IMG/VR virus record: IMGVR_UViG_3300041403_000200
Coordinates: 1-25,958 of that record
Source of the DNA: a virus
Reading direction: 5' to 3' (one strand)
DNA length: 25,958 nt
Shown: one piece after another, positions 6,106 to 25,273 of the stretch
Layout: every line of letters begins with the position of its first letter
Numbering within the stretch: the first letter of the stretch is position 1
Notes under the pieces: model-generated
Seen by the model: only the letters and a program-made list of their open reading frames with translations
What the model was told of the DNA's origin: nothing
The model's database searches: none
Translations under genes and position numbers: made by a program

Positions 6106-6692
6106 TGGGAATTATATCTGCTGCGGCTGATACTTACTATACGTACCGATTTATGCGTACCTTGGTAACCCCTTGGAACGAGACGGAAGCGTATCAGAAT
6201 GGTATTGTCGACGAAAATGGTAAAGTTCTTAAAAAGTCTTCACAGCTTAAAACTACAGCAGAGAAGTCTTCATATACGTTATTTCATAGATTAGTTTTTA
6301 ATTTAAAACGTATTATGGAAAAACTTCCGTTTGGTAAATATAAACTAGCATCTTTTGCAGCAGCTTTGTTTCTATTAAAAGAAGAAACTAATTTGTCTGA
6401 AAAGCAATTAAAAGATATTATCGATAAACTAGAATTAGATTTTGACGACTCTATAAATGAAAGTTATTGGAACGTAGATTCTGATGACAATCTCTCTCCT
6501 GGTGTTTATAGTTTGGCGTCAGATATTGCACACCCTCTTACTGGAGAAATGGTTGCATTAAAGGGAACTACTGTAATTGTTCCAGCGATGTGTGAAGCTG
6601 TAGATAATATATTTGGTACACCCATCTATAAAGTTAAACATTCGCCAACAAAAAGTGATATATACATTAGTCCCGAGGATATAAAACGATGA
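6105..6692 (+). CDS. Conserved T4-like phage protein, unknown function
   Basis: The 195-residue product contains FMRTLVTPWNETEAYQNGIV near the N-terminus and YTLFHRLVFNLKRIMEKLP mid-protein, both recognisable as strongly conserved blocks of a widespread T4-like phage family, plus a C-terminal beta-rich part (GEMVALKGTTVIVP). A short hydrophobic run (LASFAAALFLL) may be buried rather than membrane-spanning. Function is not known. It is coupled to both neighbours through TAATG and ATGA overlaps, and in related phages I recall it paired with the previous gene. Confidence 0.8.
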   Translation: MGIISAAADTYYTYRFMRTLVTPWNETEAYQNGIVDENGKVLKKSSQLKTTAEKSSYTLFHRLVFNLKRIMEKLPFGKYKLASFAAALFLLKEETNLSEKQLKDIIDKLELDFDDSINESYWNVDSDDNLSPGVYSLASDIAHPLTGEMVALKGTTVIVPAMCEAVDNIFGTPIYKVKHSPTKSDIYISPEDIKR

Positions 6693-7671: not shown

Positions 7672-7748
7672 TTTTACTCCTTTGTAAAAAAGGTGTGTAC
7701 ATTTGCGCCGTTTTGTTATATAATAATAGCATATTGATTGGAGTAAAA
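7672..7748 (+). repeat. Inverted repeat joining the region upstream of the promoter to the nrdA Shine-Dalgarno
   Basis: TTTTACTCC (7672-7680) is the exact reverse complement of GGAGTAAAA (7740-7748), which contains the nrdA ribosome site. The left arm lies upstream of the promoter, so only a read-through transcript would carry both arms. The intervening loop is 59 bases. Confidence 0.55.
7696..7724 (+). promoter_or_regulatory. Sigma70-like promoter for nrdA
   Basis: TGTACA (7696-7701) and TATAAT (7719-7724) are separated by 17 bases in the 131-base gap before nrdA. The -10 is perfect and the -35 matches 4 of 6. Transcription would start near 7731, nine bases before the GGAG at 7740. Confidence 0.65.
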
Positions 7749-11416: not shown

Positions 11417-11568
11417 ATGAGTTTGAGTGTATTGAATGTGGTTGCTTATTTAAAGCACAAATGGTGCATGAAGACTCGGAAGACGAAGTCATCTATTGTG
11501 TAAACTGTGGAACCGAACTTGAAGATCAACTAGATGAGAATCTTTTTGAGGATGAGGATGATCTATAA
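11413..11568 (+). CDS. Small zinc-ribbon protein
   Basis: A 51-residue ORF starting at the ATGA overlap with the glutaredoxin stop. Its sequence has CIECGC (C6, C9, C11) and CVNCG (C29, C32), a two-knuckle zinc ribbon, then an acidic tail (DENLFEDEDD). Tight coupling to the nrd operon and the spaced CxxC pairs support a real gene. Small zinc ribbons of this type occur in T4-like phages; a role in redox or transcription cannot be decided from sequence. Confidence 0.8.
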   Translation: MNEFECIECGCLFKAQMVHEDSEDEVIYCVNCGTELEDQLDENLFEDEDDL

Positions 11569-11571
11569 ATA
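11564..11571 (+). promoter_or_regulatory. Possible T4-type late promoter (TATAAATA)
   Basis: TATAAATA overlaps the stop of the zinc-ribbon gene and lies 28 bases before the next ATG, the right distance for a late promoter. The 8-mer is expected several times by chance in AT-rich DNA of this length, so confidence is limited. Confidence 0.4.
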
Positions 11572-11599
11572 GTACAATAAGCAACAATATGGTACATTT

Positions 11600-12025
11600 A
11601 TGGAACAGTGGATTTATGAAAACAAAGTATTTGAGTCAGCCCAAATTGAAGACTGGGCTGGCTTTGTATATTTAATTACAGATCTATCAAATAATAAAAA
11701 ATACGTTGGTAAGAAAAACTTTTGGTCTACTAGAAGGTTACCACCACTCAAAGGTAAAACTAGACGTAGAATTAAAAAGACTGAATCAGATTGGCAAGAC
11801 TATTTTGGTTCTAACGAGGAAGTTAAGCTTCTAGTAGAGCAAAATGGTAGGTCAAACTTTAAAAGAGAGATTATTCGGTTGTGTAAGACCAAAGGTGAAA
11901 TGAGTTATTTTGAGGCAAAAGAGCAGTTTGATAGGGAAGTCCTATTCAAAGATGACTATTATAATGAGTTTATTGGGTGCAAAATTCACGCAAAACACGT
12001 AAAAAACTGTTTACAAACCGATTAA
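11600..12025 (+). CDS. SegE-like GIY-YIG domain protein (putative homing-type endonuclease)
   Basis: The 141-residue protein shows a divergent GIY-YIG core: VYLIT at 23-27 for the first motif and YVGKKNFW at 35-42 for the second, then SDWQDYFGS at 63-71, FKREIIRLC at 87-95 and YFEAKEQF at 103-110, where E105 could be the metal-binding glutamate. This arrangement matches the SegE-like GIY-YIG family I recall from T4-type phages. Length is typical of a catalytic domain with no separate DNA-binding domain. No clear Shine-Dalgarno precedes ATG 11600. It sits between the nrd operon and rnh, the kind of core-gene boundary free-standing seg genes often occupy. Nuclease activity is inferred. Confidence 0.75.
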   Translation: MEQWIYENKVFESAQIEDWAGFVYLITDLSNNKKYVGKKNFWSTRRLPPLKGKTRRRIKKTESDWQDYFGSNEEVKLLVEQNGRSNFKREIIRLCKTKGEMSYFEAKEQFDREVLFKDDYYNEFIGCKIHAKHVKNCLQTD

Positions 12026-13372: not shown

Positions 13373-13380
13373 TATAAATA
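13373..13380 (+). promoter_or_regulatory. Possible T4-type late promoter (TATAAATA)
   Basis: TATAAATA lies just after the stop at 13369 and about 55 bases before an intrinsic terminator, so a transcript from here would be a short RNA of about 80 bases unless it reads through. A chance 8-mer match is possible. Confidence 0.3.
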
Positions 13381-13435
13381 TCTTTATGAGATTAAAGAAT
13401 AAAAACAATATGCTTTACATTCTCTGAACTACAGG

Positions 13436-13467
13436 GTTAGCAGTTTTCTGCTAGCTCTTTTTTTTTT
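13436..13467 (+). terminator. Rho-independent terminator after the rnh operon
   Basis: GTTAGCAG (13436-13443) pairs with CTGCTAGC (13448-13455), 8 bp including one G-U, around a TTTT loop, followed by TC and ten T residues. It lies 66 bases after the end of the rnh-coupled gene. Confidence 0.88.
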
Positions 13468-13537: not shown

Positions 13538-13708
13538 ATGTATGGTTCACAACTAGAAAGATTGAAAAGAGATTCAAGAGAGCTCAAAACTTATATTAGA
13601 AAAATAGAATCAAAAGGTGATAGAACATTATTGTTTAAGCTTCAGAAGAAGCACGAATATTTAGAAAGCCGGATTGGTGATATTCAGGAGGAACTTTTAG
13701 CAAGTTAG
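13538..13708 (+). CDS. Small charged helical protein (start uncertain; in-frame AUA 45 bases upstream)
   Basis: From ATG 13538 a 56-residue charged helical protein is encoded (MYGSQLERLKRDSRELKTY at its start, QEELLAS at its end), with AAGGAG nine bases upstream. The frame stays open to an AUA at 13493 that has a perfect AGGAGG eight bases before it; that start would add 15 basic residues (MSKKTRPNRTKEIFK). No ATG, GTG or TTG lies between. It follows the rnh-operon terminator and precedes a strong promoter. Function unknown. Two ribosome sites in one frame could mean two products or a decayed start. Confidence 0.65.
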   Translation: MYGSQLERLKRDSRELKTYIRKIESKGDRTLLFKLQKKHEYLESRIGDIQEELLAS

Positions 13709-13721
13709 GTAAAAATAACTG

Positions 13722-13750
13722 TTTACAACCTCTCACAATTGTGGTATAAT
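13722..13750 (+). promoter_or_regulatory. Sigma70-like promoter with extended -10
   Basis: TTTACA (13722-13727), a 17-base spacer and TATAAT (13745-13750) with TGG immediately before it. An A-rich box and CTG precede the -35. It drives the gene at 13780. Confidence 0.88.
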
Positions 13751-13770
13751 ATACTTATAATTGTGAGAGG
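13729..13770 (+). repeat. Perfect 12-bp inverted repeat spanning the promoter spacer and the Shine-Dalgarno
   Basis: CCTCTCACAATT (13729-13740) and AATTGTGAGAGG (13759-13770) are exact reverse complements. The left arm is in the -35/-10 spacer and the right arm holds the GAGAGG ribosome site of the 13780 gene. A transcript started here lacks the left arm; a read-through RNA would contain both. Confidence 0.85.
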
Positions 13771-13779
13771 ATATACATT

Positions 13780-14418
13780 ATGAATCTATTTTATTTACAC
13801 CCAGATCCCGTCATAGCTGCTCAGTTACAATGCGACAAACACGTCGTCAAGATGATTGTTGAGTCAGCTCAAATGCTTAGTACTTCGCATCGTATTCTTG
13901 ATGGTGCTATGGAAAAACGCTTGTCCAAATCTGGTAAGCGACTCGTAAAATATTGGAAACACGAAGATTTCGTGATGGAAGCAGTATTATATAAAGCTGT
14001 TCATATGGGTCACCCATGTACAGTATGGACTATGGAATCAAATTCAAATTATCAATGGCACTACCAGCACTTCGTTGCGCTTTGCGATGAATATAAGTAT
14101 AGGTATGGTAAGGTACATCATACAGATACTATACTACGTGGAATGCTAAAAACTCTACCAAAAAATATACCTACAGGTGATATGACTCCAATTAAACTTG
14201 CTATGAAATCAAATCCTGAATGTATGTTTCCAGATGATCCAGTAAAATCATATCGTCTATACTATAAAACTAAGAAAGATCGTTTTAAAATGGTATGGAC
14301 TAATCGTGAAACACCCGAATGGTTTTTAGAAGAACCACCTAAACAACAGGAAAGATACTATGATTATATGCTTCGTAGATATCGTGAAGAGGAAAATAAA
14401 ATAAATGCCAAACTATAG
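13780..14418 (+). CDS. Conserved phage protein, unknown function
   Basis: The 212-residue product begins MNLFYLHPDPVIAAQLQCDK and continues HVVKMIVESAQMLSTSHR. Later blocks HPCTVWTMESNSNYQW and YRLYYKTKKDRFKMVW are rich in aromatic and His/Cys residues and look like a family I recall as common in large marine phages. I do not recognise a catalytic signature; it does not resemble T4 DenV. It has its own strong promoter and an SD-sequestering repeat, unlike most genes here, so its expression is probably specially controlled. Its 3' end overlaps the zinc-ribbon gene by 14 bases. Confidence 0.8.
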   Translation: MNLFYLHPDPVIAAQLQCDKHVVKMIVESAQMLSTSHRILDGAMEKRLSKSGKRLVKYWKHEDFVMEAVLYKAVHMGHPCTVWTMESNSNYQWHYQHFVALCDEYKYRYGKVHHTDTILRGMLKTLPKNIPTGDMTPIKLAMKSNPECMFPDDPVKSYRLYYKTKKDRFKMVWTNRETPEWFLEEPPKQQERYYDYMLRRYREEENKINAKL

Positions 14419-16645: not shown

Positions 16646-16702
16646 TAAAAAAAATGCACTTTTTTGTAAAAAAATGCATTTTAGGGGTTTACATTCTCTC
16701 CA
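16646..16702 (+). repeat. Promoter-upstream repeat, copy A (AATGCAYTTT...TTAGGGGTTTACA)
   Basis: An A-rich tract with AAAATGCACTTTTT then AAAATGCATTTTAGGGG, ending in the -35 and CATTCTCTCC. The same arrangement recurs at 24921-24965 and 25297-25322. In this copy the AAAATGCA unit is doubled. Confidence 0.75.
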
Positions 16703-16715
16703 GATGTTGTATAAT
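16688..16715 (+). promoter_or_regulatory. Sigma70-like promoter
   Basis: TTTACA (16688-16693), a 16-base spacer and TATAAT (16710-16715), preceded by the AATGCATTTTAGGGG box. It drives the gene at 16745. Confidence 0.85.
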
Positions 16716-16741
16716 ATAACTATAAAATGATGGAGAGAATG
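16692..16741 (+). repeat. Perfect 11-bp inverted repeat spanning promoter and Shine-Dalgarno
   Basis: CATTCTCTCCA (16692-16702) and TGGAGAGAATG (16731-16741) are exact reverse complements. The right arm carries the GGAGAG ribosome site; the left arm starts within the -35 and lies upstream of the transcript start. Confidence 0.85.
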
Positions 16742-16744
16742 ATT

Positions 16745-17083
16745 ATGAAAACACAAATTGAAACCCTTGTTAAAGCTATCGGTAACGACTTCGCTTACTG
16801 GACTGGCAAAAGCCGCTACGGCGATGATGATTTTAAATCAGAGCGTGTCAAAGAATTCTGTGAAGGAATCGTTGTTGAAGAAGGTCGTAAATACATTAGG
16901 ATCTTAAAAGACAACGGTGGCTGTGTCTGGGGATTCGTTGTCAAAGAAGACACTAAAAAGTTTCGTAAAGGTGATATTTTGAAAGCAGCTAGTTATAAAG
17001 CTCCTGCGACTAACAAAGCTCGCGGTAATATCATTGATGGTGGCTATACCATTCGTTGGACTGGCCCTGAGTATCTTATATAA
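16745..17083 (+). CDS. Conserved phage protein, unknown function
   Basis: I use ATG 16745 (MKTQIETLVKAIGNDFAYW, 112 residues), which has GGAGAG seven bases upstream; earlier in-frame ATGs at 16727, 16730 and 16739 lie before or inside that ribosome site. Segments GRKYIRILKDNGGCVWGFVV, KFRKGDILKAASYKAPATNK and RGNIIDGG...WTGPEYLI form a compact beta-rich protein similar to one I recall in T4-like marine phages, function unknown. Its promoter and inverted repeat nearly match those at 24951, suggesting common regulation. The next coding start lies 15 bases past its stop. Confidence 0.78.
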   Translation: MKTQIETLVKAIGNDFAYWTGKSRYGDDDFKSERVKEFCEGIVVEEGRKYIRILKDNGGCVWGFVVKEDTKKFRKGDILKAASYKAPATNKARGNIIDGGYTIRWTGPEYLI

Positions 17084-24920: not shown

Positions 24921-24965
24921 AAAAAAATGCACTTTTTTTCATTTTAGGGGTTTACATTCTCTCTA
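24921..24965 (+). repeat. Promoter-upstream repeat, copy B
   Basis: AAAAAAATGCACTTTTTTTC then ATTTTAGGGGTTTACATTCT: the same box and -35 as the copies at 16646 and 25297. The 24876-24920 stretch between the tmRNA and this repeat is AT-rich with no gene seen. Confidence 0.75.
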
Positions 24966-24978
24966 GTTGTGGTATAAT
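24951..24978 (+). promoter_or_regulatory. Sigma70-like promoter with extended -10
   Basis: TTTACA (24951-24956), a 16-base spacer and TATAAT (24973-24978) with TGG just before it. Near-identical to the promoter at 16688. It drives the gene at 25007. Confidence 0.88.
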
Positions 24979-25004
24979 ATACTTATAAATTGATGGAGAG
25001 AATG
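24955..25004 (+). repeat. Inverted repeat spanning promoter and Shine-Dalgarno (11 bp with one G-U)
   Basis: CATTCTCTCTA (24955-24965) pairs with TGGAGAGAATG (24994-25004); ten pairs are Watson-Crick and one is T-G, which would be G-U in RNA. The right arm holds the GGAGAG ribosome site. Confidence 0.8.
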
Positions 25005-25006
25005 AA

Positions 25007-25273
25007 ATGTTGAAATTCGAATTACTTGCAAACGTTGGAGATACTATTAAAGCATATGACTTTAAAGGTATGCAAGACCGTTATATCCAAGGCAAAATCA
25101 TCGACAAGGGTGATATTAAACACCCAACTTATGGTTCTGTCATGTACCGTGGGTACTCTATCCTCATCGCGGAAGATTCAGGAAGCACTTCTGGTGGTCG
25201 TGTTGGGGATATTGGATATGTTCCATTTGAAACAGACTTCATGGAATACGATGAACGTGTCACCTTGGTGTGA
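25007..25273 (+). CDS. Small protein of unknown function, likely early gene
   Basis: An 88-residue protein (MLKFELLANVGDTIKAYDFK at the start) with beta-like segments, a glycine-rich GSTSGGRVGDIGYVPF and an acidic end. GGAGAG lies six bases before the ATG. I recognise no family. Its strong promoter with SD-masking repeat parallels the gene at 16745, suggesting the same regulation. A perfect hairpin overlaps its stop codon. Confidence 0.72.
   Translation: MLKFELLANVGDTIKAYDFKGMQDRYIQGKIIDKGDIKHPTYGSVMYRGYSILIAEDSGSTSGGRVGDIGYVPFETDFMEYDERVTLV

Follow-up and report, generated by a model that had tools for sequence, protein, structure and literature searches.

A probable translation switch governed by transcript origin at a sigma70-type promoter of a marine T4-like phage

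The transposase genes of the insertion sequences IS10 and IS50 are reportedly protected from read-through transcription, as credited to work by Davis, Simons and Kleckner in 1985 and by Krebs and Reznikoff in 1986. In both elements the promoter is of the sigma70 class, and only RNA coming from outside has both arms of an inverted repeat and masks the Shine-Dalgarno (SD) sequence of the transposase gene. A comparable arrangement exists in the phage T4 genes e, soc, 49 and I-TevI and in the relatives segB and Aeh1 mobE, where the 5' strand of an SD-hiding hairpin overlaps a proximal promoter; transcripts from upstream are masked and those from the proximal promoter are translated (PMC3014915, PMC2988022). 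The nested promoters of this type are T4 late promoters (TATAAATA in the case of e), and all genes carrying them are late genes (PMC2988022).

The DNA analysed here (the window) is a viral contig of 25,958 bases from a T4-like marine phage, and all window features given below lie on its plus strand. Our target is the gene at 13780-14418, which is surrounded by genes of RNase H, NrdA/NrdB-type, SegE-type and PhoH-type proteins. It encodes a protein of 212 aa that matches PHROG 624 ('DNA binding protein', E 1e-54), the match to Pfam Pyr_excise being below the cut-off (19.2 versus 23 bits), and the closest named phage as judged by this protein is Phage C48C1 of the Kyanoviridae (67% identity). 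The SegE-type GIY-YIG endonuclease gene (11600; region 11564-12025) has TATAAATA 36 nt upstream of its start, as expected for a T4-like late homing endonuclease.

Upstream of the 13780 gene lies a sigma70-type promoter with a -35 element TTTACA (13722-13727) and a -10 element TATAAT (13745-13750, with TG at 13742-13743), separated by a spacer of 17 nt. The initial annotation of this DNA had claimed a perfect 12-bp repeat with one arm in the spacer and the other over the ribosome site, and both arms are indeed present: CCTCTCACAATT (13729-13740) pairs perfectly, across a loop of 18 nt, with AATTGTGAGAGG (13759-13770), which contains the SD sequence GAGAGG (13765-13770) at a distance of 9 nt from the ATG at 13780. 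Judging from the usual spacing after the -10 element, transcription would start at about 13757; the left arm ends 5' of the -10 element and hence ahead of this putative start. The predicted fold energy of the local hairpin is -22 to -23 kcal/mol. When the predicted folds of the two RNA species are compared, as that annotation had suggested, the stem is the centroid structure of read-through RNA, whereas RNA starting at 13757 cannot form it and folds in an ordinary manner (z = +0.2). The predicted probability of GAGAGG being unpaired is 0.00 in read-through RNA versus 0.22-0.33 in promoter-started RNA; according to the folding model the SD is thus only partly open even in the latter, which counts against a masking switch.

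The locus resembles T4 e, soc, 49 and I-TevI in that the 3' arm is predicted to sequester the SD and the 5' arm precedes the putative proximal start. It differs from them in its nested promoter, which is of the sigma70 type (TTTACA-17-TATAAT) with an arm in the -35/-10 spacer, TATAAATA being found only further upstream, at 13373; moreover, unlike in the T4 late set, the genes involved are largely non-structural and the arms turn over completely between relatives. Its sigma70-type nested promoter places the 13780 case outside the T4 late set. The comparison with e drawn in the initial annotation therefore holds for the logic and fails for the promoter class, which is the opposite of late. With IS10 and IS50 the locus shares the sigma70 promoter and, in our proposal, the confinement of masking to incoming RNA, but there a mobile element is guarded from outside promoters by an arm within its own end, whereas here resident phage genes in operons are concerned. 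On contig G002 we observed TATAAATA promoters inside long dyads beside an SD at 6583 of locus L123 (TCCTCCAATTG/CAATTGGAGGA) and at 2004 of locus L124 (CAATGTTGACCTAAC/GTTAGGTCAACATTG); given these T4-like late dyads, sigma70 and late versions both exist in these phages.

We propose that the hairpin at 13780 is probably a cis-acting translation switch that depends on the origin of the transcript. The hairpin that holds the ribosome site includes the sigma70-type promoter in its loop and left arm, so that RNA initiated at about 13757 would lack the left arm and keep the site usable. RNA arriving from upstream, through a small gene, would contain both arms, fold into the hairpin and hide the site. 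The gene product would then be made only upon firing of its own promoter. What the sequences show are the arms, the promoter-like sequence, the predicted folds and a pairing that is conserved where the sequence is not; promoter use, and the existence and poor translation of read-through RNA, we infer.

The small upstream gene (13538-13708, 56 aa, SD AAGGAGAT) has a conserved position in relatives. We looked for a terminator between its end at 13708 and the 13780 gene and found none; its message would run on into the 13780 gene. On its 5' side are an intrinsic-terminator-like hairpin followed by a T-run (13433-13466), similar in clade A, and, between a DUF6433 gene and the small gene, a T4-late-type TATAAATA (13373-13380), which is located at the same place in 9/9 contigs examined (the window, L163 and seven contigs of clade A). 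The order in these contigs is DUF6433 gene, TATAAATA, terminator-like hairpin, small gene, promoter and 13780 orthologue. By its sequence the TATAAATA at 13373 is a candidate source of late read-through, and in the clade of the window the likeliest late read-through would come from there. In the window itself, the terminator-like hairpin at 13433 is strong and may hold read-through down, which counts against the proposed switch. In L035, L037, L042 and L048 the small gene lies close behind a DUF6433-type gene, and neither TATAAATA nor a terminator was found, so that transcripts of the upstream operon should read through. Since the upstream layouts differ, the masked transcripts may differ between clades, and what the clades would have in common is translation of the gene solely from its own promoter. 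The conserved T4-late-type TATAAATA upstream in the window's clade suggests that the timing may be reversed, and our guess is that the 13780 gene is on early and off late, the reverse of T4 e. Within the segment 13373-13466, TATAAATA is followed after about 50-70 nt by the terminator-like hairpin, an arrangement that recurs at this position in eight other contigs. It could yield a short late RNA of about 75 nt or provide the small gene with a leaky start.

Comparison of orthologues revealed a variety of arms, namely TACATCCTCACT (L004, L174, L177), TACACCCTCATT (L172, L184, L176), ATCCTCACTCTAT (L167), CATCTCCACCAA (L038), CCCTTAAAATTT (L042), CCCCGTAAGT (L048) and ATCCCTGCTT (L052), as well as a stem that includes a G.U pair in L037. 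The arms of L038, L042, L048, L052 and L037 are unrelated in sequence and retain pairing, which argues that pairing itself matters. For clade A, which comprises the alignable orthologues, covariation was computed on loop-trimmed sequences: 93% of the cells are paired, three closely related sequences carry double substitutions at the same two pairs, and the covariation score of 0.193 exceeds those of shuffled sequences (0.124; none of 500 reached it) and of slid versions (0.132 at most). Counting against the switch, the hairpin is present in only 24/73 promoter-bearing orthologues and absent in the closest relative other than near-copies (L163/L003, 76% identity), even though the gene order is kept there. 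Its state changes at least 11 times on the gene tree, indicating repeated gain and loss; judged from these sequences, the hairpin comes and goes, each time with new sequences.

A second module in the window (16688-16741; -35 TTTACA 16688-16693, -10 16710-16715) precedes the gene starting at 16745, its arms being CATTCTCTCCA (16692-16702) and TGGAGAGAATG (16731-16741), the latter over the SD. The third module (24951-25004), paralogous to the second, precedes gene 25007 with the arms CATTCTCTCTA (24955-24965, one U.G pair) and TGGAGAGAATG (24994-25004). Both thus have a common arm sequence, CATTCTCTC(C/T)A / TGGAGAGAATG, which is distinct from the 13780 arms, and the sole arm difference between them retains pairing as U.G. 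For both, folding predicts an SD that is masked when the RNA reads through and open when it starts at the promoter. Viewed more broadly, the regions 16684-16745 and 24947-25007 are a duplicated promoter-leader cassette (GGGGTTTACATTCTCTC..TATAAT..GATGGAGAGAATG) at distant genes, and in the near-copy contig L154 one left-arm change in this cassette shortens the stem. A weak fourth candidate around the promoter of nrdA (7750), TTTTACTCC (7672-7680) / GGAGTAAAA (7740-7748), was set aside as it is unconserved among nrdA relatives and may be due to chance. In other contigs the PHROG 10499 family has four different arm pairs (L151, L242, L412, L436), with pairing kept via one G.U in its member L448, and single cases were found ahead of genes for a sigma-region-4 protein (L012), a 2OG oxygenase (L081) and an exonuclease (L024). 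The initial annotation had named compensatory changes in relatives as a check of its masking interpretation. The two double substitutions in clade A and the unrelated yet pairing arms farther out, together with the recurrence in a second family and in the window, speak for that interpretation at the level of sequence.

The dyad is also symmetric about the -10 element, and a DNA operator centred there and bound by a dimeric repressor or activator was the alternative put forward in the initial annotation. A promoter family of this kind occurs in Pseudoalteromonas phage XG4 (L512, L513), with about 12 cassettes TTGACATGATGATTCTATTTGATATAATAGAATCATCA that carry an 11-bp dyad on the -10 element and that look, by their sequence, like an operator or leader element. 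The XG4 family shares with the 13780 site the symmetry about the -10 of a sigma70 promoter and in this respect favours an operator; it differs in that the dyad sequence is conserved over about 12 promoters, the SD is uncovered and the right arm is kept when the left is lost. A strand-specific test of the helix ends in our promoter survey (see below) gave 21 G.U versus 2 A.C, which is suggestive of RNA but not significant (P = 0.07, local-composition null) and compatible with DNA. The arms, however, are unrelated between orthologues and differ between the promoters of the window, the loops range from about 16 to 39 nt without helical phasing, and the left arms are located in the spacer or over the -35 element, so that a separate repressor would be needed per promoter. 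Arms that differ within and between genomes, combined with variable loops, disfavour one shared operator protein, and we consider an operator unlikely. XG4 contains, in addition, about 14 copies of a promoter with a conserved leader of about 70 nt (AAACACGTAGTGTCTAATTAATTCTAATCACCC...GAGTGGAAAAATATAATT; L510-L516), which may represent a small RNA or leader RNA in repeated copies, and a similar leader precedes the PHROG 624 gene in L484.

Acting on transcription instead, the hairpin could be an insulator that terminates read-through and is passed by polymerase from the nested promoter, whose RNA lacks the left arm. L042, L048, L052 and L242 have a T-run after the right arm, which allows for termination as an additional or alternative effect, but none is present in L038, L004, L172 and L012 or in the window, where GAGAGGATATACATT is present and ATATACAT comes directly after the right arm. 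As loops of about 16-39 nt are also long for terminators, an insulator is likely true for a subset only and appears decidedly improbable as the general explanation.

Finally, the complementarity might be a coincidence, given a strong promoter whose spacer is rich in pyrimidines and a leader rich in purines. With a loop of at most 60 nt, one 12-bp inverted repeat is observed in the window versus 0.22 expected by chance, which is not rare and makes the lone repeat weak evidence, and the hairpin is missing in most orthologues. The repeat count is unremarkable, but its placement and its relatives are not. By permutation, at least 12 perfect pairs between random promoter and leader have a probability of 1.4e-4. 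We surveyed loci from protein-based retrieval and whole contigs (4.2 Mb of related contigs), yielding 1105 non-redundant sigma70-type promoters, each with a downstream ORF, and scored how long a perfect helix the promoter region can form with the leader, using a permutation null that keeps both compositions. At least 10 perfect pairs were found at 19/1105 promoters, whereas permutation gave 1.2 and in no single run more than 7. Helices of 12 bp or longer were found at 12 of 1105 versus about 0.2. Helices of at least 11 bp occur at 2.1% of ORF starts with a promoter versus 0.18% of SD-bearing ORF starts without one. Overall the excess over the composition-keeping permutations is about 16-fold, these statistics resting on some 20 strong cases. 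In 13/16 of the strongest cases, 3 nt or more of the SD lie within the right arm, which is not significantly above random arm placement in the leader (65%), and one-sided arm changes among close variants are few. As a positive control, the known arm of T4 e (AATACCT/AGGTATT) was recovered, only as a 7-bp perfect helix; T4 e would thus fall below our cut-off of 9 bp, and the survey is an undercount. One dyad, in L218, is a false positive located within an RNase H gene. A scan of five named phages and C48C1 gave almost no such cases, and the orthologue leaders of 12 records, the five named genomes and C48C1 gave one strong dyad only; the strong dyad in a named phage is that of XG4 (L514, minus strand, 15425), with the SD just beyond the arm. 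In Salmonella phage PRF-SP13 a similar T5-like promoter is present and the inverted repeat is absent. Considering the excess over permutations, the compensatory changes and the recurrence in the window and a second family, we regard coincidence as very unlikely. A processing or stability element, in which the read-through hairpin is cut or protects downstream RNA and SD masking is secondary, could be served by any long stem, and T4 RNA processing is widespread (PMC3014915), but it predicts neither a left arm stopping short of the transcription start nor the usual SD coverage by the right arm, and we give it hardly any credence.

Owing to their rapid turnover, the arms amount to a set of compensatory mutants made by nature, and the search for helices between promoter spacer and leader, combined with permutation, is applicable to any phage collection. 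If translation at 13780 does depend on transcript origin, a mechanism of a few late T-even genes and of insertion sequences extends to sigma70-type promoters and to non-structural phage genes, and compact operons can hold an internal gene under the control of its own promoter without a terminator. More tentatively, and with considerable doubt, we suggest that some marine T4-like phages use the T4 scheme in reverse, with genes of DNA metabolism being translatable only from early RNA of a sigma70-type promoter and silent on late read-through RNA, and with hairpins that re-arise with new sequences. If this holds true, the ribosome would be made to sort mRNAs by their origin.
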